This document shows positions 6,946 through 58,198 of a DNA stretch of 64,000 nt, piece after piece (the first letter of the stretch is position 1; each line of letters opens with the position of its first letter). Both the position numbers and the translations under genes were made by a program. Location: positions 1-64,000 of the forward strand of contig JAOAKA010000003.1 in the NCBI GenBank assembly GCA_026413885.1, in the 5' to 3' direction. The notes below the pieces were generated by a model. The model worked only from the letters and a program-made list of their open reading frames with translations, was not told the origin of the DNA and did no database searches. The DNA is from Sulfolobales archaeon (GTDB taxonomy: Archaea > Thermoproteota > Thermoprotei_A > Sulfolobales > NBVN01).

Positions 6946-7866
6946 TTGTCTCAAGATCTCTCTGAAGAAGCCCTGCTCAAAAAGATAGAGGAAACTAGAA
7001 GTAGAGTAGTTGAGCTTAAATCAGAGAAAGATAGGTTAATTAGGAATATTAGAGACCTTAAGAGCAGTATAGCGTCAACTAAGAGTAGAATAAGAGACTT
7101 AGTGAGCGAGCGCAATGCCGTTAGAAATAGCTTAAAATCGGTAATTGAAGAACGCAGAAAACTTGTTGAAGAAAGAAGGAGTCTAGTTACTGAGCTTAGA
7201 AAAAAGAGAGAGAAACTCTACGACCTTCTCTCGAGAATCGAAGTAAGAGACAGAGATAAGCTGCGGTCTACTGTCGGTACTCTGAAGACTAGGATAGAGA
7301 AACTAGAGTGGAGAATCATTACGGAGTCTCTAAGTCTAGAGGAGGAGAATAGACTCGTAAGAGAGATCGCTAAACTTGAGACTGAGCTCGAAAAAATCTA
7401 TGAGAACATTAAGAAATCTAATGAGGTTAGTGAACTTAGAGCTGAAATAACGAGTATTAAGATAAACATAGGAGATCTAGGAAAGAAAATAGAGCAGTTA
7501 ACTCAAGAACTAACGAGTTTGAGCTCTAGAGAGCAGTCGATTAGGTCTGAAGTAGATAAGAATAGAAAAGCGCTCGAGCAGTTAGTAAATGAGTTGAGTT
7601 CATCTGTCAGTAGACTTCTCCAGGTGAAAGAAGAACTGCGAACACTAAGCGAAGTACTTAGAGGAAGTTACGAAGAATTAAGAAAACTGAGAGCCGGTAG
7701 ATCTAGACAGAGAGAGATTGAAGTATTCACTAGAAAGAAGAAGGAGGTGGAGGAGAAAGCTAGAAAGAGTGAGAGATTAAGCTTCTATGAAGCTCAAATA
7801 TTATATAGCTCATACGAAGATATAGTTGAAGAGGAAAATGAAAAAAGTACTGATTCTAGCAGTTGA
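6946..7866 (+). CDS. Archaeal coiled-coil protein, COG1340-like
   Basis: The 306-residue protein is almost entirely charged heptad coiled coil (Lys/Glu/Arg/Leu/Ser-rich from residue 5 to about 270) with no membrane segment and no ATPase motif. It resembles the uncharacterised archaeal coiled-coil family COG1340, whose cellular role is unknown. The TTG start follows the acdB stop by four bases. Its 3' end overlaps the DUF373 gene, so acdB, this gene and the DUF373 gene look like one transcript. Low-complexity coiled coils attract spurious matches, so the family assignment is weaker than the structural description. Confidence 0.65.
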   Translation: MSQDLSEEALLKKIEETRSRVVELKSEKDRLIRNIRDLKSSIASTKSRIRDLVSERNAVRNSLKSVIEERRKLVEERRSLVTELRKKREKLYDLLSRIEVRDRDKLRSTVGTLKTRIEKLEWRIITESLSLEEENRLVREIAKLETELEKIYENIKKSNEVSELRAEITSIKINIGDLGKKIEQLTQELTSLSSREQSIRSEVDKNRKALEQLVNELSSSVSRLLQVKEELRTLSEVLRGSYEELRKLRAGRSRQREIEVFTRKKKEVEEKARKSERLSFYEAQILYSSYEDIVEEENEKSTDSSS

Positions 7867-8917
7867 CTACGATGACGATATCTCTAAAGCAGGAGTTACT
7901 ACACCAGTAGTTGGCTACGCGAACCTAGTTGACGCAGCTCTAAAGTTTGGGACTGTTTTCCCAGATGACTCAGACCTCAACGTTCTCTTTCATGCTCTAC
8001 ACCTTCATAGAGAACTTAAGGATAGAGGTCATGAACCCGAAGTAGCTCTTATCTCAGGTAGTGATGAGAGCCACGTTGAAGCAGGTAGAAAACTCAGAGA
8101 GCAGCTCTCCTCTGTGATAAAGCAGGCAAGCATAAGTGATATAATACTCGTTCTAGATAGTGTTGAAGATGAGCTAGTTATTCCGATAGTTCAGAGTCAA
8201 GCTAACATAGTAGCTATCGAGAGAGTTGTAGTTGAGCAGCTTAGAGGTGTTGAAGAAACCTATGTTCTCATAGGGAAGTATTTGAGGAAAGCTATAGAAG
8301 ACCCGAAGTACTCAAAGGTCTTCTTCGGTCTTCCAGGCTTTCTCTTTTTAGTGTATGCGCTAATAAGTTCTTCACCATATGCTAGATATGCGTGGGAAAC
8401 TACTCTATTATTCCTCGGAATCTTCATGGTGTTGAAAGGATTCCACGTTCTTGAGTTTGTTTTGAGGAAGTGGTATTCCTCCTCTATCTACAGGATTACT
8501 ACTGTTTTATCAGTGGCATCTATATCTATTGGAGTATTCTTCCTCATTGGAGCTCTAATAGCTAGAAACTTCTCTAGTGACCTAAGGTCTCTCAGCATCT
8601 ACGTGAAAACATTTCTACCATTTCTGACACTCTCTCTAATAGTGCCTTATATCGGTAGATTAACGAGTAGATTACTTAGAAGAAGCTTGAGAGCTTGGCG
8701 TGATGTTATAGCAGTAATATTCATAGTAGTGGTATCTTTTTACGTAAACAACATAGTAGATATTACATCGAGTTATCCGGAGCTAGATATTTTAACAATA
8801 CTCTACGATCTAAGAGTATTTAACGTAGTCGCAGTAATCTCGCTGTCTCTAATAACTATCTACGCTATGTTGAGCTACGTTGAAAGGTATATACTCGGCT
8901 ACTCGAAGAAAACTTAA
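7838..8917 (+). CDS. DUF373 family integral membrane protein
   Basis: The N-terminal half (residues 1-150) is soluble and begins VLILAVDYDDDI, with ALISGSDESHVEAGRKLR further on; the C-terminal half holds about six hydrophobic spans. This soluble-plus-membrane layout and the acidic DYDDD opening are characteristic of archaeal DUF373, of unknown function. I prefer ATG 7838, preceded by gaagagg, over TTG 7826. The gene overlaps the coiled-coil gene upstream by 29 bases and meets the oppositely oriented regulator gene in a 53-base 3' overlap. An interaction with the coiled-coil protein is an inference from the overlap only. Confidence 0.75.
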   Translation: MKKVLILAVDYDDDISKAGVTTPVVGYANLVDAALKFGTVFPDDSDLNVLFHALHLHRELKDRGHEPEVALISGSDESHVEAGRKLREQLSSVIKQASISDIILVLDSVEDELVIPIVQSQANIVAIERVVVEQLRGVEETYVLIGKYLRKAIEDPKYSKVFFGLPGFLFLVYALISSSPYARYAWETTLLFLGIFMVLKGFHVLEFVLRKWYSSSIYRITTVLSVASISIGVFFLIGALIARNFSSDLRSLSIYVKTFLPFLTLSLIVPYIGRLTSRLLRRSLRAWRDVIAVIFIVVVSFYVNNIVDITSSYPELDILTILYDLRVFNVVAVISLSLITIYAMLSYVERYILGYSKKT

Positions 8918-9851
8918 TGTACTGACTTACTTCTCCCCCCACTTCATTTTCGATCTCTCTTCTCAGTAAATCTAGAGATGACTGATCTGAGATGACTACT
9001 TCTGTAAGAGCGCTAAACTCTCTCGCTAGACGTAGAGCATTCAGTATTTTAGCTTTAACATACTTTACGGACTGAGTCTTACTGAAGTCTACGTAAAATC
9101 TGAGGGAGCTCTCTCCCTCAGGAGCTACCTCCCTCATAACCACATCTACCGCAGTCTTATTTAAGCTGTAGACTAGAGCTCTAGTACTTACTTCTTTTAC
9201 TAAGCTCGAACGTGGTAAATTCTTTTTAACGAATATCTCTCTGAGATTGCCGTAGTTTATAGAGAGAATCATGTTGGAGCCGTACTCAGATACAAGTTTC
9301 TCTGCTTTATCGATACTCACTAATCCGAGACCCTTCAAGCAGTTTTCAACACTCTTCTTACTGAGTCCTAGGATATTTGAGATATCTGATATTCTTAGAC
9401 TACCCCGGTTAATCTCTCTCTCAATGAGTCCCACGTTTAGAGCTACGTAGAGTTCGTTGCGCCTATAGATAGTTATGAGTTCACGTTCTCTAATTACATT
9501 CTCCAGAGTTCTCTCATTACTTACGAAAATCTTTCCGTAATCGAAGACTATGTTATCGTAGACTTCGTCATCTATAACTATTGGAATACCGTCTAACGCA
9601 TCAGCAAACTTAGCTAGATCGTTTTCTACTTCACTATTAATACCAGAGCTCTTACTGGAGCTAATTCTAACGACTATACTTCCTTTATTACTAAGCTGCT
9701 GTGGTTTTCTGTCTTTAGAGTGCTCTCCAATAGTTGCTACGAAATCTATAGACCTCTCTCTATAGTTAATTGGATAGTCTAGCTCGACTACCTTATCAGC
9801 TACTCCTCTCAGTACGTCTCTTACCCTTCTAGAGACTGAACTTACGCTCAT
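8865..9851 (-). CDS. Putative HTH transcriptional regulator, COG1395-like
   Basis: The 328-residue protein contains a central helix-turn-helix candidate, ISDISNILGLSKKSVENCLK (around residues 156-175), between an N-terminal alpha/beta region and a C-terminal domain. The arrangement resembles the archaeal predicted regulators of COG1395. No effector-binding motif is obvious. It begins at ATG 9849-9851, with the rpiA gene divergent from it across a 90-base gap that must hold both promoters. Its last 53 bases lie inside the 3' end of the DUF373 gene on the other strand. Regulation of its neighbours is possible but not shown. Confidence 0.6.
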   Translation of the reverse strand: MSVSSVSRRVRDVLRGVADKVVELDYPINYRERSIDFVATIGEHSKDRKPQQLSNKGSIVVRISSSKSSGINSEVENDLAKFADALDGIPIVIDDEVYDNIVFDYGKIFVSNERTLENVIRERELITIYRRNELYVALNVGLIEREINRGSLRISDISNILGLSKKSVENCLKGLGLVSIDKAEKLVSEYGSNMILSINYGNLREIFVKKNLPRSSLVKEVSTRALVYSLNKTAVDVVMREVAPEGESSLRFYVDFSKTQSVKYVKAKILNALRLAREFSALTEVVISDQSSLDLLRREIENEVGGEVSQYIKFSSSSRVYTFQRSST

Positions 9852-9941
9852 CTAAGCTATATTTCTCTGGGGGAGTAATAAACATTAAACCTCTTCAACA
9901 CTCCATCTACGCAATTTATTCCTAGTAATAGATCCACAACA

Positions 9942-10643
9942 GTGGGAGAAAGATTGAGTGGAGAAATTGAAGTCGCCAGAAGGTCCGCAGCTATTAGAGT
10001 ATTAGAACACCTAGACACAGCTGAAGTAGTTGGATTAGGAACAGGCTCAACTATTGAGATATTTCTGAAAACTGCGTACGATAAACTAGCTAGGAAAACT
10101 CTGGTCACGTCATCAATAGATACAACTCTAGTAGCTAGATCTCTCGGCTTAAAGCTAGTGGAGCCGCTCGCTATTGATTACCTCGACCTCTACGTAGATT
10201 CAGCAGATGAAGTAGATCCTCTCGGGAGGATGGTCAAGGGGGGTGGGGGTGCTATGACTATGGAGAAGATACTTGCTTCCGCAGCAAATCTCAGAGTATT
10301 CGTAGTTGATGAACTAAAGGTAGTTCCGAAAATCCCCCACAGCAGTCCAGTGCCGATCGAAGTAGTTCCTCAAGCTATAAGCATAATTAAAAAGAAGATT
10401 GAGAGTGCTGGATTTGCGTGTCGTTTGAGAGTTCCCCATGGGAAGAGAGCTCCAGTAATTACAGACTTAGGTGGAGCTGTAATCGATACGATACCACCGA
10501 AAAACTGGGAACCAGAGGATATAGCGAGATTTTTAGAGAGTATACCTGGAGTAGTCGGGCACGGAATCTTCATAAACTACACAGATATCCTAGTTATCGG
10601 TAGACTTAGTGGTCAAGTAGAAGTTGTGTCCTACAGGAGGTAG
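9942..10643 (+). CDS. rpiA: Ribose-5-phosphate isomerase A
   Basis: The 233-residue enzyme interconverts ribose-5-phosphate and ribulose-5-phosphate, supplying nucleotide synthesis in an organism likely to use the ribulose-monophosphate route instead of an oxidative pentose pathway. It carries the phosphate-binding GLGTGST (about 32-38), the catalytic DSADEVD (about 84-90) and KGGGGAMTMEK (about 98-108), all typical of RpiA. Its length matches the family. The start is GTG at 9942, in caacagtGTG-like context without a strong ribosome-binding site. It stands alone on the plus strand between two minus-strand genes. Confidence 0.92.
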   Translation: MGERLSGEIEVARRSAAIRVLEHLDTAEVVGLGTGSTIEIFLKTAYDKLARKTLVTSSIDTTLVARSLGLKLVEPLAIDYLDLYVDSADEVDPLGRMVKGGGGAMTMEKILASAANLRVFVVDELKVVPKIPHSSPVPIEVVPQAISIIKKKIESAGFACRLRVPHGKRAPVITDLGGAVIDTIPPKNWEPEDIARFLESIPGVVGHGIFINYTDILVIGRLSGQVEVVSYRR

Positions 10644-48227: not shown

Positions 48228-50519
48228 TTAATCTCTTTTTCCTATTCTGAATACTTCTATCGTTTGTACGTCTAGTCCCGGTATGTCTACTGCTATAGAT
48301 TTGAAGTTTGGTTCTACTGGGTTCTGTTTTCCGTATTCATAGTCTTTTAATATTCCATCTAGTGGTGATGTTATGGGTGAAATTCCGTTTCCAGGTAGAA
48401 TGTAGACTCTACCATACCTACCCTCTCTTAAGGGTTTTAATAAACTATCCGGTAATCCGAAGAAAGCACCATTCTTTCCGGTTGCATATCCTGCTGGAGC
48501 GTTTATATAGTGATCGTACTGAACTGCAGGATAGTATACAATTCCAAAAGCTTTGAAGGCTATCGGATAATAAATTAACCGAGTTTCTTTATCCCATCCA
48601 CCATACTCTATTCCATATCCATGTATGAACTTAATTAAATCCCAGTAACTATAATTCCTAGATAGATAACCTTCTATACCAGCATCGTAGTTTGCTAGTA
48701 AATACTTATCTGTTCTATAAAGAGGTATCGGCTCCGTTTTTTCTGCGGATCTAGGTATAATTATTGTTTTAAATTCTTCTGGACCTAAACCACCATACCA
48801 CTGTCTCATGGCTTCTCTTAGACCGTGATCTCCTCTATCTCCAATCCAGTCGTGATAAATATCTCTATATTCAGCAATCCAGGCCCTAGTATACGGCATG
48901 TAAGTACCGTTAGGATAACTCTTTAGCACTTCTTCGTATAGTTTTGGCATGTTTTGTATGAAGTACTTCATTCCTTCTATTCCCCAGTAGTAATCTGGTC
49001 CTACCTTGAATCCTGTTCTCCCGTATTCTAGGTTTCCTATGTACCAAGGTATGTGCCAGAATAGTCTTAAAGCAATTATTCTATCGTTCTCGTCGGCAAT
49101 CATCTCTCTCAATAAGCTCGAGTTGTACCAGGGGAAGACTGTTAGTCTTTGAGAAATGTTTCCTGCTTGAGGTGTCGAGGTGTAGAAGTAGTTCCAGTAG
49201 GGTATTATAACTTCTTTCCAAATGATTTCATCGTTTGGTTTATAATATTCTCTCATATCTCTTCTCCAAACATGTGCTAAACCTTCTAGAATATCTAAAG
49301 CGTTTTGTTGAACTTTCAAACTAAAACCTAGGTACATTTCTGGATGTTCTAAAACTTCTGGAGTTCTCTTAAGATGCTCAACAAGCATCCAAACATCTCT
49401 AGGAATATTCTTGTTTACTATGCATATAGGTGGTTGTTCTTTCATATCTATTATCGGAACTATTCTTATTGGCTTAAAGTAAACTACATCGTTATTTATC
49501 ATAGTAGCGTTACCAAACAACCAGAAAGCTTCCCGACTGTGTTTAGGTAGTCTTATATTTTCTATTCCTTCTCTTGTATAAACTCTAACCCCTCTATTAA
49601 CTGCTAGCGAATAGTTTCCTAAAGCGTTAATTAGGTCTCTGGAGATCTTCATGTTTTCATAGCTATCTTTCTCTAAGTTTAAGACCTTAACATAATCTCT
49701 GAGGCCAAATTCTTCTAGAAGCTTCGTAGTTAGACTTATTAAGTTGAACTTCTCGGGATACTCTTGAATGTCCTGACTTCTAATGAAGTTTTCATATATT
49801 TGAGTAAACGTATCTGGATTTTTCTCGAAGTACTTCAAGCTCTGAAGTAGAGATTGCCTATCTCTGTAGAAGAAGTAATCTACGTAGCCTCTGAAGTTAT
49901 TTAAGAAATTCCTAGCGGCAGTCTCGGAGACGTTGTTTGTTCTAGCGAAATTCAGAAACACTTCTTCAAAAGTAGGCGGTCTTGGAGTTGTTGTTGGCGT
50001 AGGAGATGGGGTAGGTGTTGGTGTCGTTCTAGGAGTAGGTGTAGGCGATGGAGTAAGAGTTGGTGTAGGGGTGGGTGTTGGAGTTGTAGGTGGGGTGGGG
50101 GTAGGTGTTGGTGTTGCTGTGTGTGCGGGGGTCGTTCTCGGAGTTGTTGCTGGGGGTGTGGTTGTTGCTGTAGCTGGCTCCGGGGTTGCTATGGTTATTG
50201 TAGTAGCTAGTGCCGGGGGTGCGGTTAGTGGCTGGGGGTACGTGATCCTGTACAGTGCTGTCGGTGTGCTGGGGGTTGCTGGTTGGGGGGGTGTTGAGCA
50301 CTGCGTACTCGCGGTTTCTTCGCTGGGGGGCTCGGTCTTGCTTTGCGGGCCGCTCCTTCCGGGGTTCGGGGCTAGGTAGCCGGCTAGTCCGCTACCCACC
50401 AGACCTCCGACTACTAGTAGAGCTACCAGTGCGGCGAGAACCCACCTAGAACCGGGCACTCGGGTCCCGCGCAGTATTTTGCGGAGCTTAATAAAAGCGC
50501 TTGAGTAGCTACTTATCAC
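48228..50519 (-). CDS. Large membrane-anchored surface protein with Thr/Pro linker
   Basis: The 763-residue protein has a positively charged N-terminus, one transmembrane span (WVLAALVALLVVGGLVGSGL, about 26-45), a Thr/Pro/Ala-rich linker (about 55-178) resembling glycosylated cell-surface stalks, and a 580-residue outer domain rich in aromatic residues with several N-x-S/T sites. I recognise no catalytic motif or family in the outer domain. Codons change along the gene: the anchor and linker are GC-rich, the outer domain strongly AT-rich (30% in a sample), so it may be a fusion of local and acquired parts. It is divergent from pcm. Confidence 0.7.
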   Translation of the reverse strand: MISSYSSAFIKLRKILRGTRVPGSRWVLAALVALLVVGGLVGSGLAGYLAPNPGRSGPQSKTEPPSEETASTQCSTPPQPATPSTPTALYRITYPQPLTAPPALATTITIATPEPATATTTPPATTPRTTPAHTATPTPTPTPPTTPTPTPTPTLTPSPTPTPRTTPTPTPSPTPTTTPRPPTFEEVFLNFARTNNVSETAARNFLNNFRGYVDYFFYRDRQSLLQSLKYFEKNPDTFTQIYENFIRSQDIQEYPEKFNLISLTTKLLEEFGLRDYVKVLNLEKDSYENMKISRDLINALGNYSLAVNRGVRVYTREGIENIRLPKHSREAFWLFGNATMINNDVVYFKPIRIVPIIDMKEQPPICIVNKNIPRDVWMLVEHLKRTPEVLEHPEMYLGFSLKVQQNALDILEGLAHVWRRDMREYYKPNDEIIWKEVIIPYWNYFYTSTPQAGNISQRLTVFPWYNSSLLREMIADENDRIIALRLFWHIPWYIGNLEYGRTGFKVGPDYYWGIEGMKYFIQNMPKLYEEVLKSYPNGTYMPYTRAWIAEYRDIYHDWIGDRGDHGLREAMRQWYGGLGPEEFKTIIIPRSAEKTEPIPLYRTDKYLLANYDAGIEGYLSRNYSYWDLIKFIHGYGIEYGGWDKETRLIYYPIAFKAFGIVYYPAVQYDHYINAPAGYATGKNGAFFGLPDSLLKPLREGRYGRVYILPGNGISPITSPLDGILKDYEYGKQNPVEPNFKSIAVDIPGLDVQTIEVFRIGKRD
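49975..50165 (-). repeat. Degenerate TP-dipeptide-coding repeat (surface-protein stalk)
   Basis: The plus strand shows runs of ggtgttggtgtaggcg-type six-base units, encoding TPTPTP on the minus strand for roughly 60 residues with interruptions by Ser, Arg and Leu. Such stalks are heavily O-glycosylated in archaeal surface proteins. The array may vary in length by slippage or recombination. Confidence 0.65.
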
Positions 50520-51584: not shown

Positions 51585-53159
51585 ATGAAGAAGGTACTGT
51601 TAGTAACTACTCAGTCAGCTCAGAGTGTGGTATGGGAGATAGCTCAATCTCTTCGAAGAAACTATCAGATAGATATATATGTCTCTAGTGCTGTTGTTGC
51701 TCAATTTACTAGCTGTGACGAACTCGCTGTAGAGCTTCAAAAATACTTAAATAGATGTGATTACGATATTGTATTGATCCCTGGACTCGTTCGAGGTTCT
51801 ACTGAAGCTATAGAGAGAGCTATTGGATGCGAGGTTTATAAAGGTCCCAGATATGCGGGTGATATACCTCTAGCTCTAGACCTGATTGGAAAAGGGTTTA
51901 AGTTAAGTAAGGAGGTCCCAGCAGATATTCTTCATAAGGAATTCTTTTCTTCTCACTTACTATCTCGATACAGCTGGGAGGCTCTATCTAAGAAGCCTCA
52001 ATTTGAGTTGAGAGGCATTAAAGTATTTCTAGATCCACCACCTATGAAACTCCTACTCGAAGTTATGGCTTCAGACGTAGAGTTATTTAATGAAAAAGTT
52101 GCGAGAGCTGCAGAATCCGGCTTTAGTGGTGTTGTTATTGGATGTAGTAGTAGATGTAATTACACTGTGTTAGAGAAGTATGTAGATAGAGCTAGAGGAG
52201 TTGACGGAGTCCACATAGTTGGTGTGGATACCCCTAGGGTTTCAGATATACCTAGAGACCTACTGGAGAAAGTCGACATAGTTTTCAATGTAACTCACTT
52301 AGATATTGAGGGTATAGCTAGTGAATTAAGTCGCGATAAAGCTGTTGTCGTTATACCTTCAACTCTCGAGAGCACTGATAGAGCTATTCAAAGTATTGAA
52401 GCAGCAGTATCTGAGTTGAGAGAGGTGGGTTTAGAGAAGATTATCGTAGATCCTCTCATAAAACCCCCGGGCGCTGGATTAGCTGAATCAATTACAAGAT
52501 TTTACTACTCGAAGAAGTGTTTAAGCTACCCACACTTATTTAGTACAGCGAACATATACGAGCTAATAGACGCCGATAGCCACGGAGTAATAGCTCTACT
52601 CCTAGTTCTAGCCCTAGAACTTGGAGCATCACTAGTTCTAGCTACGGAGGAGAGCACTAAGTCTTTCGGAGCTATAGAGGAGCACTCAATAGCTAGATAC
52701 ATGGCTTACGTATCCTACTTCAAGAAGTCCCCACCTAAAGACGTACCTGAAGGAGTAGACCTGCTGGTCGTAAAGGGGAAGAAGCTGAAGAAACTCACAC
52801 CACCAGAGTTTAAAGGATGTGTGAGATACGTCGATTTAGTAGAACCTAGAGAAGATCCGAACTACTTCGTGAAGGTCTACGTAGACTACACTCAGAACGC
52901 CTTAGTGGTTGATGTTTTCAGTGCTAAAAGTGGGGAAATCCTAGAGAGATTCGTGGGGTCCCACCCTACTTCTCTAGCTCGAGCAGTTCTGAGAAAATAT
53001 GAGTTACTACCTGAACATAGCTCATACCTAGGATATGAGCTATGTAGAGCAGAGCTAGCTCTTAAGTTTAGGAAAGACTACGAGCAAGACCGCAGCGTAG
53101 TTACCCCACCGATAGATAGAATTAGAGAATATAGAGACTCTCTAACCTCTCTCCCGTAG
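51585..53159 (+). CDS. Dihydropteroate synthase-like protein (archaeal TIGR00284 type)
   Basis: The 524-residue protein starts KKVLLVTTQSAQSVVWEIAQ and contains a TIM-barrel region resembling dihydropteroate synthase, with GFSGVVIGCSSRCN, VFNVTHLD and KIIVDPLIKPPGAGLAESI, followed by a C-terminal domain (about residues 400-500). Archaeal proteins of this kind are annotated as dihydropteroate synthase-related and may act in pterin or methanopterin-like cofactor synthesis, but the activity has not been read from the sequence. ATG 51585 is preceded by tgtggagatgtag. Confidence 0.8.
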   Translation: MKKVLLVTTQSAQSVVWEIAQSLRRNYQIDIYVSSAVVAQFTSCDELAVELQKYLNRCDYDIVLIPGLVRGSTEAIERAIGCEVYKGPRYAGDIPLALDLIGKGFKLSKEVPADILHKEFFSSHLLSRYSWEALSKKPQFELRGIKVFLDPPPMKLLLEVMASDVELFNEKVARAAESGFSGVVIGCSSRCNYTVLEKYVDRARGVDGVHIVGVDTPRVSDIPRDLLEKVDIVFNVTHLDIEGIASELSRDKAVVVIPSTLESTDRAIQSIEAAVSELREVGLEKIIVDPLIKPPGAGLAESITRFYYSKKCLSYPHLFSTANIYELIDADSHGVIALLLVLALELGASLVLATEESTKSFGAIEEHSIARYMAYVSYFKKSPPKDVPEGVDLLVVKGKKLKKLTPPEFKGCVRYVDLVEPREDPNYFVKVYVDYTQNALVVDVFSAKSGEILERFVGSHPTSLARAVLRKYELLPEHSSYLGYELCRAELALKFRKDYEQDRSVVTPPIDRIREYRDSLTSLP

Positions 53160-53202
53160 AAAAGCTTAATAATTCTCGAGTCAGGGAACTACGGGATAGA
53201 GA

Positions 53203-53415
53203 GTGTCTATGAAAAGAAGAGAAGCAAGAGTAAAGAAGATCTCCGGTAAAAAGAATGTTAGAGGTAGAACCTACACCTACGAATACTACACACTCCCACT
53301 AAATCTCTACATACCTAAGTCTATGGTCGAGAAGTGGGGAGAAGAGTACATCATCGAGAGAGACGTAGAGAAAGGCACTATATTGATAAAGTCGAAGAAG
53401 TCGGAGTCCGGCTGA
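53203..53415 (+). CDS. Small basic protein, possibly AbrB-like
   Basis: The 70-residue protein is basic in its first 25 residues and then has YYTLPLNLYIPKSMVEKWG and EEYIIERDVEKGTILIKSK, a strand-helix-strand pattern reminiscent of swapped-hairpin AbrB/SpoVT DNA-binding domains, where IPK precedes a short helix. Whether it binds DNA is not shown. GTG 53203 or ATG 53209 may be the start; gagtg precedes. It lies four bases before the O6-alkylguanine transferase gene and is probably co-transcribed. Confidence 0.6.
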   Translation: MSMKRREARVKKISGKKNVRGRTYTYEYYTLPLNLYIPKSMVEKWGEEYIIERDVEKGTILIKSKKSESG

Positions 53416-53419
53416 GGTC

Positions 53420-53767
53420 TTGAAGACTATTACTAAAAGAGAAATATTGTTTATTTTACTTCAACTTATCCCTCTCGGAAAAGTTACAACCTACAACTCT
53501 CTAGCCAAGATTCTGAAGACTTCTCCGAGAGCTGTAGGGAGAATGCTTAAGCAAAATGAGCAGCCTATAGCTATACCATGCCACAGAGTCATAGAGAGCT
53601 CGAGATATTTAGGAGGGTATAGCGTGAACGGTAAGAATATGCGAGACTTCAAGCTGAAGCTTCTGAAGTTGGAGGAAGTTAGCTTCACTGGGTGTAGAGT
53701 TAGTTTAGACGGAATTGTTTTGCTAGATTCTATCTTAGCTGGTGCTTCTGAAAAGCGATCTAAGTAA
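53420..53767 (+). CDS. ogt: Minimal O6-alkylguanine-DNA alkyltransferase
   Basis: The 115-residue protein is the DNA-binding/active-site domain of MGMT on its own. LIPLGKVTTYNSLAKIL, RAVGRMLKQNE with the arginine finger, the nucleophile in IPCHRVI (about residue 54), and LGGYSVNG follow the family order. The usual N-terminal domain is absent, as in some archaeal single-domain enzymes. The cysteine is present, so alkyl transfer rather than an ATL-type non-enzymatic role is expected. TTG 53420 follows tgaggtc. Its 3' end overlaps the opposing operon by eight bases. Confidence 0.85.
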   Translation: MKTITKREILFILLQLIPLGKVTTYNSLAKILKTSPRAVGRMLKQNEQPIAIPCHRVIESSRYLGGYSVNGKNMRDFKLKLLKLEEVSFTGCRVSLDGIVLLDSILAGASEKRSK

Positions 53768-54608
53768 TGGGTTTAAGACTGTTCTTCAATACTTCAACTA
53801 CTTTATCAACAAATTCTTCAGGGCTGGATGTGGAAGAAAGAAAGCTTTCGAGATCCTTAAGTAAAGCACTGTCTACATTGAAGATTTTAGAAAATCTCTT
53901 AAGTGTTGATAACGCTATATCTTCTAAACTAGCTACTTCTTTTTCAGGTAATGATATGTTGAGAGATTTCATAGTTGAGTTTAAAACTAGTGCCAGAGCT
54001 AGATCGAGAAGAGACTCGGAGGAGGAACCTGGTAGAATTTTAGCTAGACTAAGCTTTGCGGATTCGTAGATTGAGACTGTAATGTTTTTTAAGCTAGCCA
54101 CTAGTCTTTTAGCGTCTCTCTGAGATATTAACTCAAGTAAGTAGTTCACCTCTCCTTCAACTACACCACCCCATAGTTCTCTACTCGATTTAACTATGCC
54201 GGCCAGCTCGTCCGATATCTCAGAGAGTTTTTTCCAGTTGGCGTAGCTGCCCTCATAGAGAGTTAGAACTAGTTTCACAAGAACGGCTGTAGCTCTGCTA
54301 AACGGTTTAAGCACCTTACCGGTGATGTCTAAGATAGCTGGGTCTGGTGCTATCGTTAATAGCACCAGTAGACTGGAGATAGTGTCTCTATCGTCCATAG
54401 TCTGAGGCTGTATTTCAATGACTTCCTCATTTTTTAATTCAACAATTAGCTTTCCAGAAACCTCGTCAAACGCTAGCTTCTTTATAGAGTCGACCTCTAT
54501 CTTGAAGTATCTCCAGCCCTTCGACGTAGTTATAGTTATATAACGTCTTTCTGTCTTTATTTCACAAATATACATAATTCTCTCGTCTTTACACAGCACT
54601 TTTCTCAC
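53760..54608 (-). CDS. Unrecognised protein with PH-like N-terminal domain
   Basis: The 282-residue protein begins with a beta-rich block of about 70 residues (YICEIKTERRYITITTSKG, YFKIEVDSIKKLAFDEVSG, LIVELKNEEVIEIQPQ) whose alternating strands resemble PH/GRAM folds. The remaining 200 residues are helical. There is no signal peptide or membrane span. It is the last gene of a minus-strand operon 57648-53760, overlapping the membrane-protein gene by 20 bases. PH-like domains often sit at membranes, which would fit the partner. Function unknown. Confidence 0.6.
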   Translation of the reverse strand: MRKVLCKDERIMYICEIKTERRYITITTSKGWRYFKIEVDSIKKLAFDEVSGKLIVELKNEEVIEIQPQTMDDRDTISSLLVLLTIAPDPAILDITGKVLKPFSRATAVLVKLVLTLYEGSYANWKKLSEISDELAGIVKSSRELWGGVVEGEVNYLLELISQRDAKRLVASLKNITVSIYESAKLSLAKILPGSSSESLLDLALALVLNSTMKSLNISLPEKEVASLEDIALSTLKRFSKIFNVDSALLKDLESFLSSTSSPEEFVDKVVEVLKNSLKPIT

Positions 54609-56664
54609 CTGAGCCGTAGACTAAAGTCCACAATGAGCGCATGTTGTTCTTGAGTGGGAATACTTCTTCAAACTTTAAACCCTGCTTTAATCCCTCTCTA
54701 ATATATTCTTCTATGAGGGAACTCATTTTTTCAAACATGTGAAGATACGCTGTGGTAGCGCCGACCGCAGAGAGGGGTCCTATAGTATCGAAAACCACCT
54801 TCAATATCAGGTCGAGGTCTCCCACTACATCAATTAGAGGAACATCGGGGTCTTCAAGTCTTGCTAGCGGCTCTCTCAGAGAACCTAGAGAGTTAGCGAT
54901 AGCTCTATCTACCTCCTCTATTCCGAGTCTCGTAGATGATGCTTTACTGACAGTGAATTTTATGTTGGGTAGAGTAGCCTTCTTTAAATCTACGATCCAG
55001 CTGAGTTTACTCAGCAGATCTGAATTAATTATTGAGCGCGCCTGCATGAAGTGGTCTTGGTAGATTCTGAAGAATTCGACTATGTAGGGATTTTTGACTT
55101 CATAGACCTCAGATAGTCTAGCTAGCTTGTTAGTCTCTACTGCTAGCTTCTCGAGTGTTCTGAGTACTCTATCTATTTGATTCTCCATCCCGGCGAGAAG
55201 AATTGTAGCAAGATTGAGGTGTGACCTAATCGCTCTAATCCCGATATCCGAGCATTTCTCGACATCTCTCAGTGTCGGTCTAAAGCCGAAGAGCTCGTAG
55301 TAAGCACTTGGAATAGTCACTAAGAGAGTTCTCTCCATTGCTCTACACTGCAGTCTAAGAAACTCCGAGATATTCGATATAGAGCTGTAGATCGTTTTCC
55401 ACTCTGCCGCAGTAGACCTCGAGATATCTACTTCATCAAATAGTGAAATGATGTGGGTTTTTGCGAGAGTTTCACTCAAGCTGAAAGACACTTTAACTAG
55501 ATCCCACAATTCTCTAGCTATAGACTCGAATTTCTGGTTAAGCTTGGAGTTAAGAGCACTTAGTTTTTCATATGTTTCAGCTATCTTTAGATAGCTAGGA
55601 ATAATCGAAGAGAGTACTCCAGCAGATTCTTGAATCACTGAGTTAGCGTTCTTAATCAGCTCTCTCAAGTCTTTTAATGACTCAAGTTCATCTTCTCTGA
55701 GGCGATTAGCTATTTCTTCAAGGTGGGCAATCTTATACCTCAAGACTTCAACAAGTTCTCTTAGGTCGAGAATGTAGCCGTATGCTTCTGATATAATTTC
55801 TTGGTAGCTCTTAATCAAACTCATAGCTGATACAAAAACTAGTGCTAGCGCGAAAGTCCACACGAGGCTGAAGGTCTCGACTTCAATGAATATAAACGTA
55901 GTTACTGAAACTATCGGGATAGCTACAGTAAGTCTCTTCAGAACCTCATGTAATGTGTTTCTTAGAGTCCCTCTCCTACCCAGTGGTGGAAGCACTCTAT
56001 AGATAAGTCTAGTAAATGCGAATCCTAGCATGTACGCTGTTAGAGCTACTACATACCAAGTGAATACTTCATAGCCTAATGTCTCCCTACTCATCCTCAG
56101 AAACTCCGTGGGTACGGCCTTCAGCTCACTTAACTCAACTACTGAGAATTGACCTACATATGTTGTTAGCACTAGAAGAATAGAATATGTAGCTACAGAT
56201 ATAACAGCAGTTATACCGGAAGACAGAGTTGAGAGACCAGCAAATAGTGAGAAAGAGGCAGCTATAGATCGAGCCCACGTTACAGATAACATATAGACAA
56301 TTAAATGATAGCATACAACTATAGCATCACCTAGCTCTCTTAGCTTAGTTATTGAGAGGTATAGTGGAATTAAGAATACGAGAATGAGTGAGAATAGAGC
56401 GACCTCTGCATAGGGTAGAATGTATCTTACATCTCCTAATGCGTAAGTCATGTAGAGATATATAACCGCAAAAATAATTGAGAAAGCCGGTATAAGTCCC
56501 GGATATCTATGCCCGAATACTGCGGTAAGTACGGTAAGTATTACTAAAGCTATTTGAAGCTCGAAGTATATCTCTGGATATATCATGAGAGCTATAACTC
56601 CCACAATGATAGTAAAAACAGCCACTGCTACCAGTCTTCTAAGCAGCTGCTCTCGTGTTAGCAT
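54589..56664 (-). CDS. Unrecognised nine-helix membrane protein with long coiled-coil tail
   Basis: The 691-residue protein has about nine hydrophobic spans in its first 285 residues and then a roughly 400-residue soluble tail that is mostly helical with heptad character (for example IAHLEEIANRLREDELESLK and YLKIAETYEKLSALNSKLN). No HAMP, kinase, receptor methylation or ATPase motif is visible. The layout recalls membrane-anchored cytoskeletal or scaffold proteins, but I cannot assign a family. It follows the 326-residue protein gene by three bases and overlaps the PH-like gene, so the three are a unit. Confidence 0.65.
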   Translation of the reverse strand: MLTREQLLRRLVAVAVFTIIVGVIALMIYPEIYFELQIALVILTVLTAVFGHRYPGLIPAFSIIFAVIYLYMTYALGDVRYILPYAEVALFSLILVFLIPLYLSITKLRELGDAIVVCYHLIVYMLSVTWARSIAASFSLFAGLSTLSSGITAVISVATYSILLVLTTYVGQFSVVELSELKAVPTEFLRMSRETLGYEVFTWYVVALTAYMLGFAFTRLIYRVLPPLGRRGTLRNTLHEVLKRLTVAIPIVSVTTFIFIEVETFSLVWTFALALVFVSAMSLIKSYQEIISEAYGYILDLRELVEVLRYKIAHLEEIANRLREDELESLKDLRELIKNANSVIQESAGVLSSIIPSYLKIAETYEKLSALNSKLNQKFESIARELWDLVKVSFSLSETLAKTHIISLFDEVDISRSTAAEWKTIYSSISNISEFLRLQCRAMERTLLVTIPSAYYELFGFRPTLRDVEKCSDIGIRAIRSHLNLATILLAGMENQIDRVLRTLEKLAVETNKLARLSEVYEVKNPYIVEFFRIYQDHFMQARSIINSDLLSKLSWIVDLKKATLPNIKFTVSKASSTRLGIEEVDRAIANSLGSLREPLARLEDPDVPLIDVVGDLDLILKVVFDTIGPLSAVGATTAYLHMFEKMSSLIEEYIREGLKQGLKFEEVFPLKNNMRSLWTLVYGSGEKSAV

Positions 56665-56667
56665 CTG

Positions 56668-57648
56668 TCACACCTTGATCAAGTTTAGATACTTTAAATT
56701 TGTTAATACTTCAACAGCTTCACTGAGGGAGGCTGATTTTGCTATAAGGTCTACCCCCTCAGTAATGATGTCTCGTAAGCTAAACTCTACTAAAGCCTTA
56801 ACATCGAGTGTGTCACTATTTGTATGGCTTATTCTTACTCTATCTACATCTTTCTCTATCTTCAAGATTTCCTCACTTAAACCACTCGGCACAGTTATGC
56901 TACCTAGAGCGAAGTTTCCTGTGAGTAGCTTTACACGTCCGGTGAATATGAAAAACACTAGACTGAAAGCATGAATTAAGTCTCGGAACATTGATAGTGG
57001 TTCAAGTCTAAAGCAGAGAGGCACGTAAGTCCCTACGAGAGGTCTTTCGTGGAGTTCAGCTATCAATTCAGCTATACACTTCTTTACATAGTCGACTACC
57101 TCCATTTTGAGTGAGCTTCTCATTACTCTCTCAAACGAGATCGGGAGAATAGTGTACCTCCCATGAGGAATTAAATCACTAACTAAAAAAGCTAAATTCA
57201 CCTTGTCGGAGTCATCTAGAGCTATGTAATCAAAGTCTAAGAGTAGAAGGATGTGTGACTCTATTTTCTGGTTTCTCATAGACCTCAGTACTTCACGTGC
57301 TACTAGTAGGGATTCATCTCGAGTGTTAGTGACGATACTTACGAAAGACGTCGTCTTCGGGCTCATATAGAAGGTAAGCATTTCTGCTAGTGCTTCATAC
57401 TCTGAGATTTCGGATCGAGAGATCTGTGATATCTGTTTTCTCTGTTCTAACGGTCTACATCTGACAGACATTAAATTACCAGAGGTTTTAGATTCACCCT
57501 CAGGATCGAGTGTGAAGACTGTCGGATATAGATCGAGAGCTTCAGGGAATATCTGAAGATACTTTTTATGCACTACGAATATCTTCTCCTGACTCGCTAA
57601 GCTAACCCTGCTGAGCAGATCTAGAATAAAGCTCAGTGCCTTACTCAT
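56668..57648 (-). CDS. Unrecognised soluble alpha/beta protein, first gene of operon
   Basis: The 326-residue protein alternates strands and helices (SFVSIVTNTRDESLLVAREV, SHILLLLDFDYIALDD, YTILPISFERVM), suggesting a Rossmann-like or tubulin-like core, but the glycine-rich nucleotide loop of FtsZ (GGGTGS) and the P-loop are both absent. The segment FRDLIHAFSLVFFIFTG is strongly hydrophobic and could contact the membrane. ATG 57646-57648 follows gggaggggg, a strong ribosome-binding site. It opens the three-gene unit. The preceding gap 57649-57835 contains a TATA-like ctttatttaat and no gene. Confidence 0.6.
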   Translation of the reverse strand: MSKALSFILDLLSRVSLASQEKIFVVHKKYLQIFPEALDLYPTVFTLDPEGESKTSGNLMSVRCRPLEQRKQISQISRSEISEYEALAEMLTFYMSPKTTSFVSIVTNTRDESLLVAREVLRSMRNQKIESHILLLLDFDYIALDDSDKVNLAFLVSDLIPHGRYTILPISFERVMRSSLKMEVVDYVKKCIAELIAELHERPLVGTYVPLCFRLEPLSMFRDLIHAFSLVFFIFTGRVKLLTGNFALGSITVPSGLSEEILKIEKDVDRVRISHTNSDTLDVKALVEFSLRDIITEGVDLIAKSASLSEAVEVLTNLKYLNLIKV

Positions 57649-57835
57649 AATCCCCCTCCCAGATTTTAAAGTATCAGATTAAATAAAGTTGTTGATTGCT
57701 TTACCTGATATCTTCGCTGTGTAGCTTAAAGTAAACTTCCTCTTGAATACGAATTTCTGTGTTTCCAGCTAGATCTCTAGTATGTTGCTAAAGATCTAGT
57801 TAGAGAAGTAGAGATCTTCAATTTGTGCTAGCACG

Positions 57836-58198
57836 CTATGTATAGAGCTTTCTCTGAGTGTATTTTATTAAGCAGAGATCGTTTGGGCTTCTACTGACTT
57901 GAGTTCTCCACTGCTGCATCCACATGTAGGTAGGTGGATGTGTATGCACTACTGTAGCCGGCTGCACGATCTTGTGTAGAGATAGGTGGGTAGTTACCGC
58001 TGCTACAGCTGCTGCTACCAAGCTACTGTCAGCTGTTATTGGTTTAGATGCTTCCCCAACCTCAGGTTTTGAGGTGGGCGCTGCCGGATGTGTTGGTGGA
58101 AGAGTAGGTTCTTTTCTTGCTGATGGACGTGTGAAGACCCTAACTAGAGCTGTAATTAGAGCTAGTATTATGAATGCCAGAAGATAGGCATACATCAC
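57836..58198 (-). CDS. Small single-span membrane protein with Pro-rich tail
   Basis: The 120-residue ORF has one N-terminal transmembrane span (YLLAFIILALITALVRVF, about 5-22), a basic turn, a Pro/Thr-rich linker (about 30-55) and an Ala/Val/His-rich end with HTHPPTYMWMQQW. The composition suggests a real anchored protein, but the last 30 residues look less convincing and could be beyond the real end of an original gene. The start is GTG 58198 or ATG 58195. Coding sequence at 57917-57940 forms a perfect seven-base-pair hairpin. I do not recognise it. Confidence 0.5.
   Translation of the reverse strand: MMYAYLLAFIILALITALVRVFTRPSARKEPTLPPTHPAAPTSKPEVGEASKPITADSSLVAAAVAAVTTHLSLHKIVQPATVVHTHPPTYMWMQQWRTQVSRSPNDLCLIKYTQRKLYT

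Follow-up and report, generated by a model that had tools for sequence, protein, structure and literature searches.

Three closely spaced genes in a 64,000-nucleotide stretch of DNA from a Sulfolobales archaeon (the window, which is part of a 1.32 Mb draft genome) raise the question of what kind of membrane-associated unit they encode, and whether it has counterparts elsewhere. The genes are designated A, B and C here (Table 1). Sulfolobales are known for ESCRT-III-like division and had been regarded as almost free of tubulins. The window set is best read as a variant, without the GTPase, of a tubulin-based membrane system about which little is known, and the evidence for this reading and its competitors is set out below.

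Organization and conservation of the triplet

As the initial annotation stated, A, B and C are coupled ORFs on the minus strand with a gap of 3 bases between A and B, which is borne out by the coordinates and by synteny in five genomes. The 20-base overlap that it reported for B and C holds for the nominal ORFs, but C is more likely to start at GTG 54599, because a GGTGAG sequence precedes this codon and the most divergent C ortholog begins there, and the overlap would then be 11 bases. At its other end, C overlaps by 8 bases with a convergent alkyltransferase-like ORF (53420-53767). No Rfam family was found near the locus, and a sigma-70 promoter scan is not meaningful for archaea.

Table 1. 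Features of the A-B-C locus in the window.
Feature	Position	Strand	Description	Basis
Gene A	57648-56668	minus	326 aa, soluble alpha/beta, predicted tubulin fold	ORF, orthologs, AlphaFold, Foldseek
Gene B	56664-54589	minus	691 aa, membrane protein; 9 hydrophobic segments (6+3), then ~400 all-helical residues	ORF, orthologs, AlphaFold, hydropathy
Gene C	54608-53760	minus	282 aa (279 with GTG 54599 start); N-terminus beta-rich, remainder helical	ORF, orthologs
Shine-Dalgarno-like GGGAGGGGG	57652..57660	minus	precedes gene A	sequence
TTTAAAAT stretch	57663-57670	minus	directly upstream of GGGAGGGGG; putative promoter role	sequence
Shine-Dalgarno-like GGTGAG	54604..54609	minus	for probable C start 54599	sequence
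Neighbor X, OadG-like	57836..58198	minus	one N-terminal membrane helix	Pfam PF04277 E 2.5e-4, below cut-off; synteny

The A-B-C order is kept in five of the seven genomes of the genus (drafts, 79-97% complete), in which the proteins share 27-61% identity, and codon position 3 is the most variable position in all three genes when the orthologs are compared. Because of this synteny and this pattern of change, the three ORFs are real, conserved genes. They diverge faster than the genes that flank them. No triplet is present beside the gamma-glutamyltranspeptidase gene in G005 and G002, both of which are drafts and the latter of which is fragmented there, and the genera examined elsewhere in the family have different genes beside the alkyltransferase gene, with no triplet seen. 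The OadG-like neighbor X accompanies the triplet in all five genomes, lying in G003 on the other side of the gamma-glutamyltranspeptidase gene, and it was not seen beside that gene in G005; whether X is a member of the unit is uncertain.

The three genes do co-occur in other genomes, and none matches the profile of a characterized complex. A survey across Thermoproteota, which had been proposed as a check on the triplet, detected no close homologs outside the genus. Profile searches yielded no convincing relatives of B outside the genus among 214 genomes of the order, no convincing relatives of A and B in a sample of the phylum (398 genomes), and no relatives of A and B in viral contigs. The matches obtained outside the genus in the order and the phylum were near threshold, short and mutually inconsistent, and were dismissed.

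Two other regions of the window may be recorded here. A DUF4346/pterin-binding-like gene, a gene for a 70-aa protein of no recognized family and the alkyltransferase-like gene (51585-53767) form a block that stays together in the majority of the genera surveyed in the family, and a 763-aa protein without a Pfam match at E 0.01 is encoded on the minus strand at 48228-50519.

Predicted structures of the three proteins

Searches of A, B and C against Pfam, NCBIfam, PADLOC, PHROGs and PDB sequences gave nothing convincing. The earlier view that none of the three belongs to a known family therefore stands as far as profile libraries and PDB sequences are concerned, but not at the level of the predicted structure of A, nor with regard to probable counterparts in other Sulfolobales, which are described in the next section.

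The AlphaFold model of A (pLDDT 72, pTM 0.74, with much of the core at 85-95 and residues 213-284 poorly predicted) agrees with the annotation of A as a soluble alpha/beta protein and adds a predicted tubulin fold that had been missed. In a Foldseek search of the PDB with this model, all 50 matches listed belong to the tubulin superfamily, and they include tubulin (3.5e-5, the best E-value), CetZ (6.3e-5), TubZ, Odinarchaeal tubulin and phage PhuZ. A phage tubulin-like protein likewise heads the matches in a viral library (E 3.1e-6), in which seven entries score below 0.001: three named as tubulin or cell-division proteins, one uncharacterized and three without a name. The TM-scores between A and tubulins reach about 0.5 at most, and the identity to CetZ, TubZ, PhuZ and tubulin in the structural alignments is 5-13%. 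Judged from the model, A very probably has a tubulin fold.

The GGGTG[ST]G loop is absent from all five A orthologs by motif test, and the orthologs do not match the Pfam tubulin profiles (PF00091, PF13809). In its place, the orthologs have a conserved arginine-aspartate in the loop that follows strand 4, which reads NTRDES in window A (about residues 109-113). Because the predicted structure is of the tubulin type and the GGGTG[ST]G loop is missing, A is best called a pseudo-tubulin, that is, a predicted tubulin fold without the nucleotide loop. A therefore resembles CetZ, TubZ, PhuZ and tubulin in its predicted fold, but differs from them in the loop and in the lack of a Pfam tubulin match.

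B was initially annotated as a protein of nine spans followed by a 400-residue coiled coil. Hydropathy upholds nine hydrophobic segments, arranged in a 6+3 pattern at the N-terminus, where the AlphaFold model places ten helices across the hydrophobic region; the tail of about 400 residues is all-helical, but is composed in the model of many separate helices, so that the description as a single uninterrupted coiled coil is inaccurate. A fold search with B gave no usable match and no transporter fold (best E 0.49), and profile searches gave no match to transporter families.

The PH/GRAM-like N-terminus that had been assigned to C finds no profile support, since neither window C nor its orthologs match a PH or GRAM profile; a weak bPH_3 match (E 0.062) occurs in the C protein of cluster L198, a probable homolog of window C. 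SopA_C matched just one of the five C orthologs (E 1.6e-4) and was for that reason judged a chance match. No Cdv-type family match was found in A, B or C. The triplet shares with CdvABC/ESCRT-III of crenarchaea the archaeal order and the idea of a three-gene, membrane-related cytoskeletal unit, but it differs from that system in this absence and in the membrane-integral B, for which there is no Cdv counterpart.

FtsZl1 clusters in other Sulfolobales

FtsZl1 (FtsZ-like 1, Pfam Tubulin_2) is a single long chain consisting of a tubulin-like domain, a coiled coil and a helical C-terminus, and includes the crenarchaeal protein SSO1376 in Sulfolobus (Makarova and Koonin, 2010; PMC2875224). FtsZl1 systems have membrane-protein neighbors, with vWA, GTPase or OmpA genes nearby, and a role in membrane remodeling has been proposed (PMC2875224). 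In the literature found, just two cases of FtsZl1 are noted in Sulfolobales (PMC2875224, PMC9723716), and a published description of the A-B-C partner set was not found. PF00091 matched proteins in 20 of 211 genomes of the order, some of them weakly, and nothing in the seven draft genomes of the genus, in which a tubulin-family GTPase was thus not detected.

In other Sulfolobales families, FtsZl1 lies in D-FtsZl1-A-B-C clusters. The L195 cluster is encoded on one strand and comprises D, FtsZl1 (875 aa), A (325 aa), B (808 aa) and C (283 aa), and its D protein has a signal peptide, an outer domain and a C-terminal membrane helix. L198 and L200 contain the same gene set with A on the opposite strand; A is also on the opposite strand in L199, where the stretch ends inside B. 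In L202 and L203, D and FtsZl1 are followed by B, a zinc-ribbon homolog of cluster A and a small protein assigned as C by position only. The D proteins that were compared are homologous, and the FtsZl1 proteins that were checked retain an intact GGGTGSG loop. Cluster A fits a degenerate tubulin paralog, as suggested by its full-length alignment with the tubulin domain of FtsZl1 (16.1; 1/120 shuffles), which was obtained with the pooled alignments described below.

Probable relationship between the window triplet and the FtsZl1 clusters

The A, B and C proteins of the window and of the clusters are alike in size and architecture. Their order is the same in L195 and differs elsewhere: A lies on the opposite strand in L198-L200 and after B in L202 and L203. 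The 6+3 hydrophobic pattern of B is found in both sets, being less clear in L203. Early, simple profile comparisons between window and cluster proteins were weak, and hmmsearch of all neighborhood ORFs with the window profiles did not single out the counterparts. With pooled alignments of five to six sequences each and a global mode, both of which were adopted after these first weak comparisons, so that the scores should be read accordingly, window C aligned end to end with cluster C at a global score of 18.3, which was reached by none of 120 block shuffles and compares with 9.5 for the best other family. Cluster B ranked first when window B was compared with control families (local 44.1, global 15.2), but the reversed control scored 46.2 locally, and because this exceeds 44.1, the B signal may reflect helical composition. 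No sequence signal was detected between window A and cluster A in profile comparisons with the pooled alignments.

Taken as a whole, the window triplet is probably homologous to the FtsZl1 clusters. It has in common with FtsZl1 systems a predicted tubulin-like fold adjoining membrane proteins, a proposed part in membrane remodeling and, with the Sulfolobales clusters, probable A-B-C partners. It differs from them in lacking the GTP loop, the fused coiled-coil tail and FtsZl1 itself: FtsZl1 and D are absent at the window locus (D was sought in the window and in the genus stretches fetched), and none of the scanned neighbors is a vWA, GTPase or OmpA gene. The site of the triplet is also unlike the sites of the FtsZl1 clusters.

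This difference in site, the lack of any link by sequence from window A to cluster A and the reversed control that equals the B signal would all be expected if A were a tubulin-like protein that had been separately recruited into a membrane unit unrelated to FtsZl1, with order, sizes and topology being convergent. Such convergence is rather unlikely, because window C aligns with cluster C from end to end, with a score that no shuffle and no other family reaches, and because gene order, protein sizes and the topology of B are the same. We regard as improbable the alternative that A is a generic Rossmann-like alpha/beta protein and that B-A-C forms a transporter or sensor together with its soluble regulators: it would account for the lack of a tubulin profile match and of the signature loop in A, for the nine spans of B, a number found in many transporters, and for the adjoining OadG-like gene, but Foldseek ranks tubulins above many other Rossmann-like proteins in two libraries and B matches no transporter fold or family. 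That the triplet is a lineage-specific defense or mobile-element cargo unit is highly improbable, for although it occurs in part of one genus only, at a site empty of it in other genera of the family, and evolves faster than its neighbors, there is no PADLOC or PHROG match, no relative of A or B in viral contigs and no recognized mobile gene beside it, and its synteny is stable at one locus.

A proposed model for the FtsZl1 membrane module and its putative reduced form

We lean toward reading the triplet as a scaffold complex bound to the membrane and as a reduced, GTPase-less derivative of the Sulfolobales FtsZl1 membrane module, which accords with the resemblance to a membrane scaffold, and with the three-gene membrane unit, put forward in the initial annotation. 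In the full system, FtsZl1 would act as a GTP-driven filament former that polymerizes with B and C as its platform. B, a polytopic protein bearing a large helical domain, would be the membrane anchor, and C would be a small adaptor. Cluster A, as a degenerate FtsZl1 paralog, could be a non-hydrolyzing tubulin-like adaptor or cap, and D might provide a connection across the membrane to the cell exterior. In the genus of the window, FtsZl1 and D would have been lost and A-B-C retained. Because FtsZl1 is undetected in the genus while A-B-C remain, the window proteins may form a static, nucleotide-independent scaffold that shapes or organizes the membrane. The chances seem about even that A, B and C together constitute an undescribed, tubulin-derived but nucleotide-free complex that has outlived FtsZl1 in the genus, the same A-B-C set serving FtsZl1 as an equally undescribed membrane platform in other Sulfolobales. 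Complex formation, polymerization, a membrane function and the history of FtsZl1 loss are all points that we infer.

A conserved partner set, together with a lineage that has the partners and no detectable GTPase, offers a direct way to ask what role FtsZl1 plays. The same lineage offers a way to ask whether a tubulin fold can act as a static membrane scaffold.

Other FtsZl1 and possible tubulin-like loci

A second arrangement of FtsZl1 is present in L194, L196 and L197, in which the next gene encodes a protein of 695-829 aa that has membrane helices close to the C-terminus, followed in L196 and L197 by a protein of about 262 aa; the FtsZl1 proteins of L194 and L197 have N-terminal membrane helices. 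The neighbors of the Sulfolobus-type FtsZl1 (L196, L197 and L207) were considered as homologs of B and C and rejected, as no relation was detectable. Within the order, PF00091 matches best (E 1e-13) to a 422-aa ORF in L193 (4676-5944; G120:C33), which contains no GGGTG-type motif in a simple scan and is possibly a further tubulin-like protein. In L203, the FtsZl1 gene is split between two ORFs (7514-10170). In L207 (7616-15694), the FtsZl1 frame is broken into fragments that have two near-identical copies of a 319-aa ORF around them, suggestive of an insertion element; a transposon has been reported in the literature for SSO1376.
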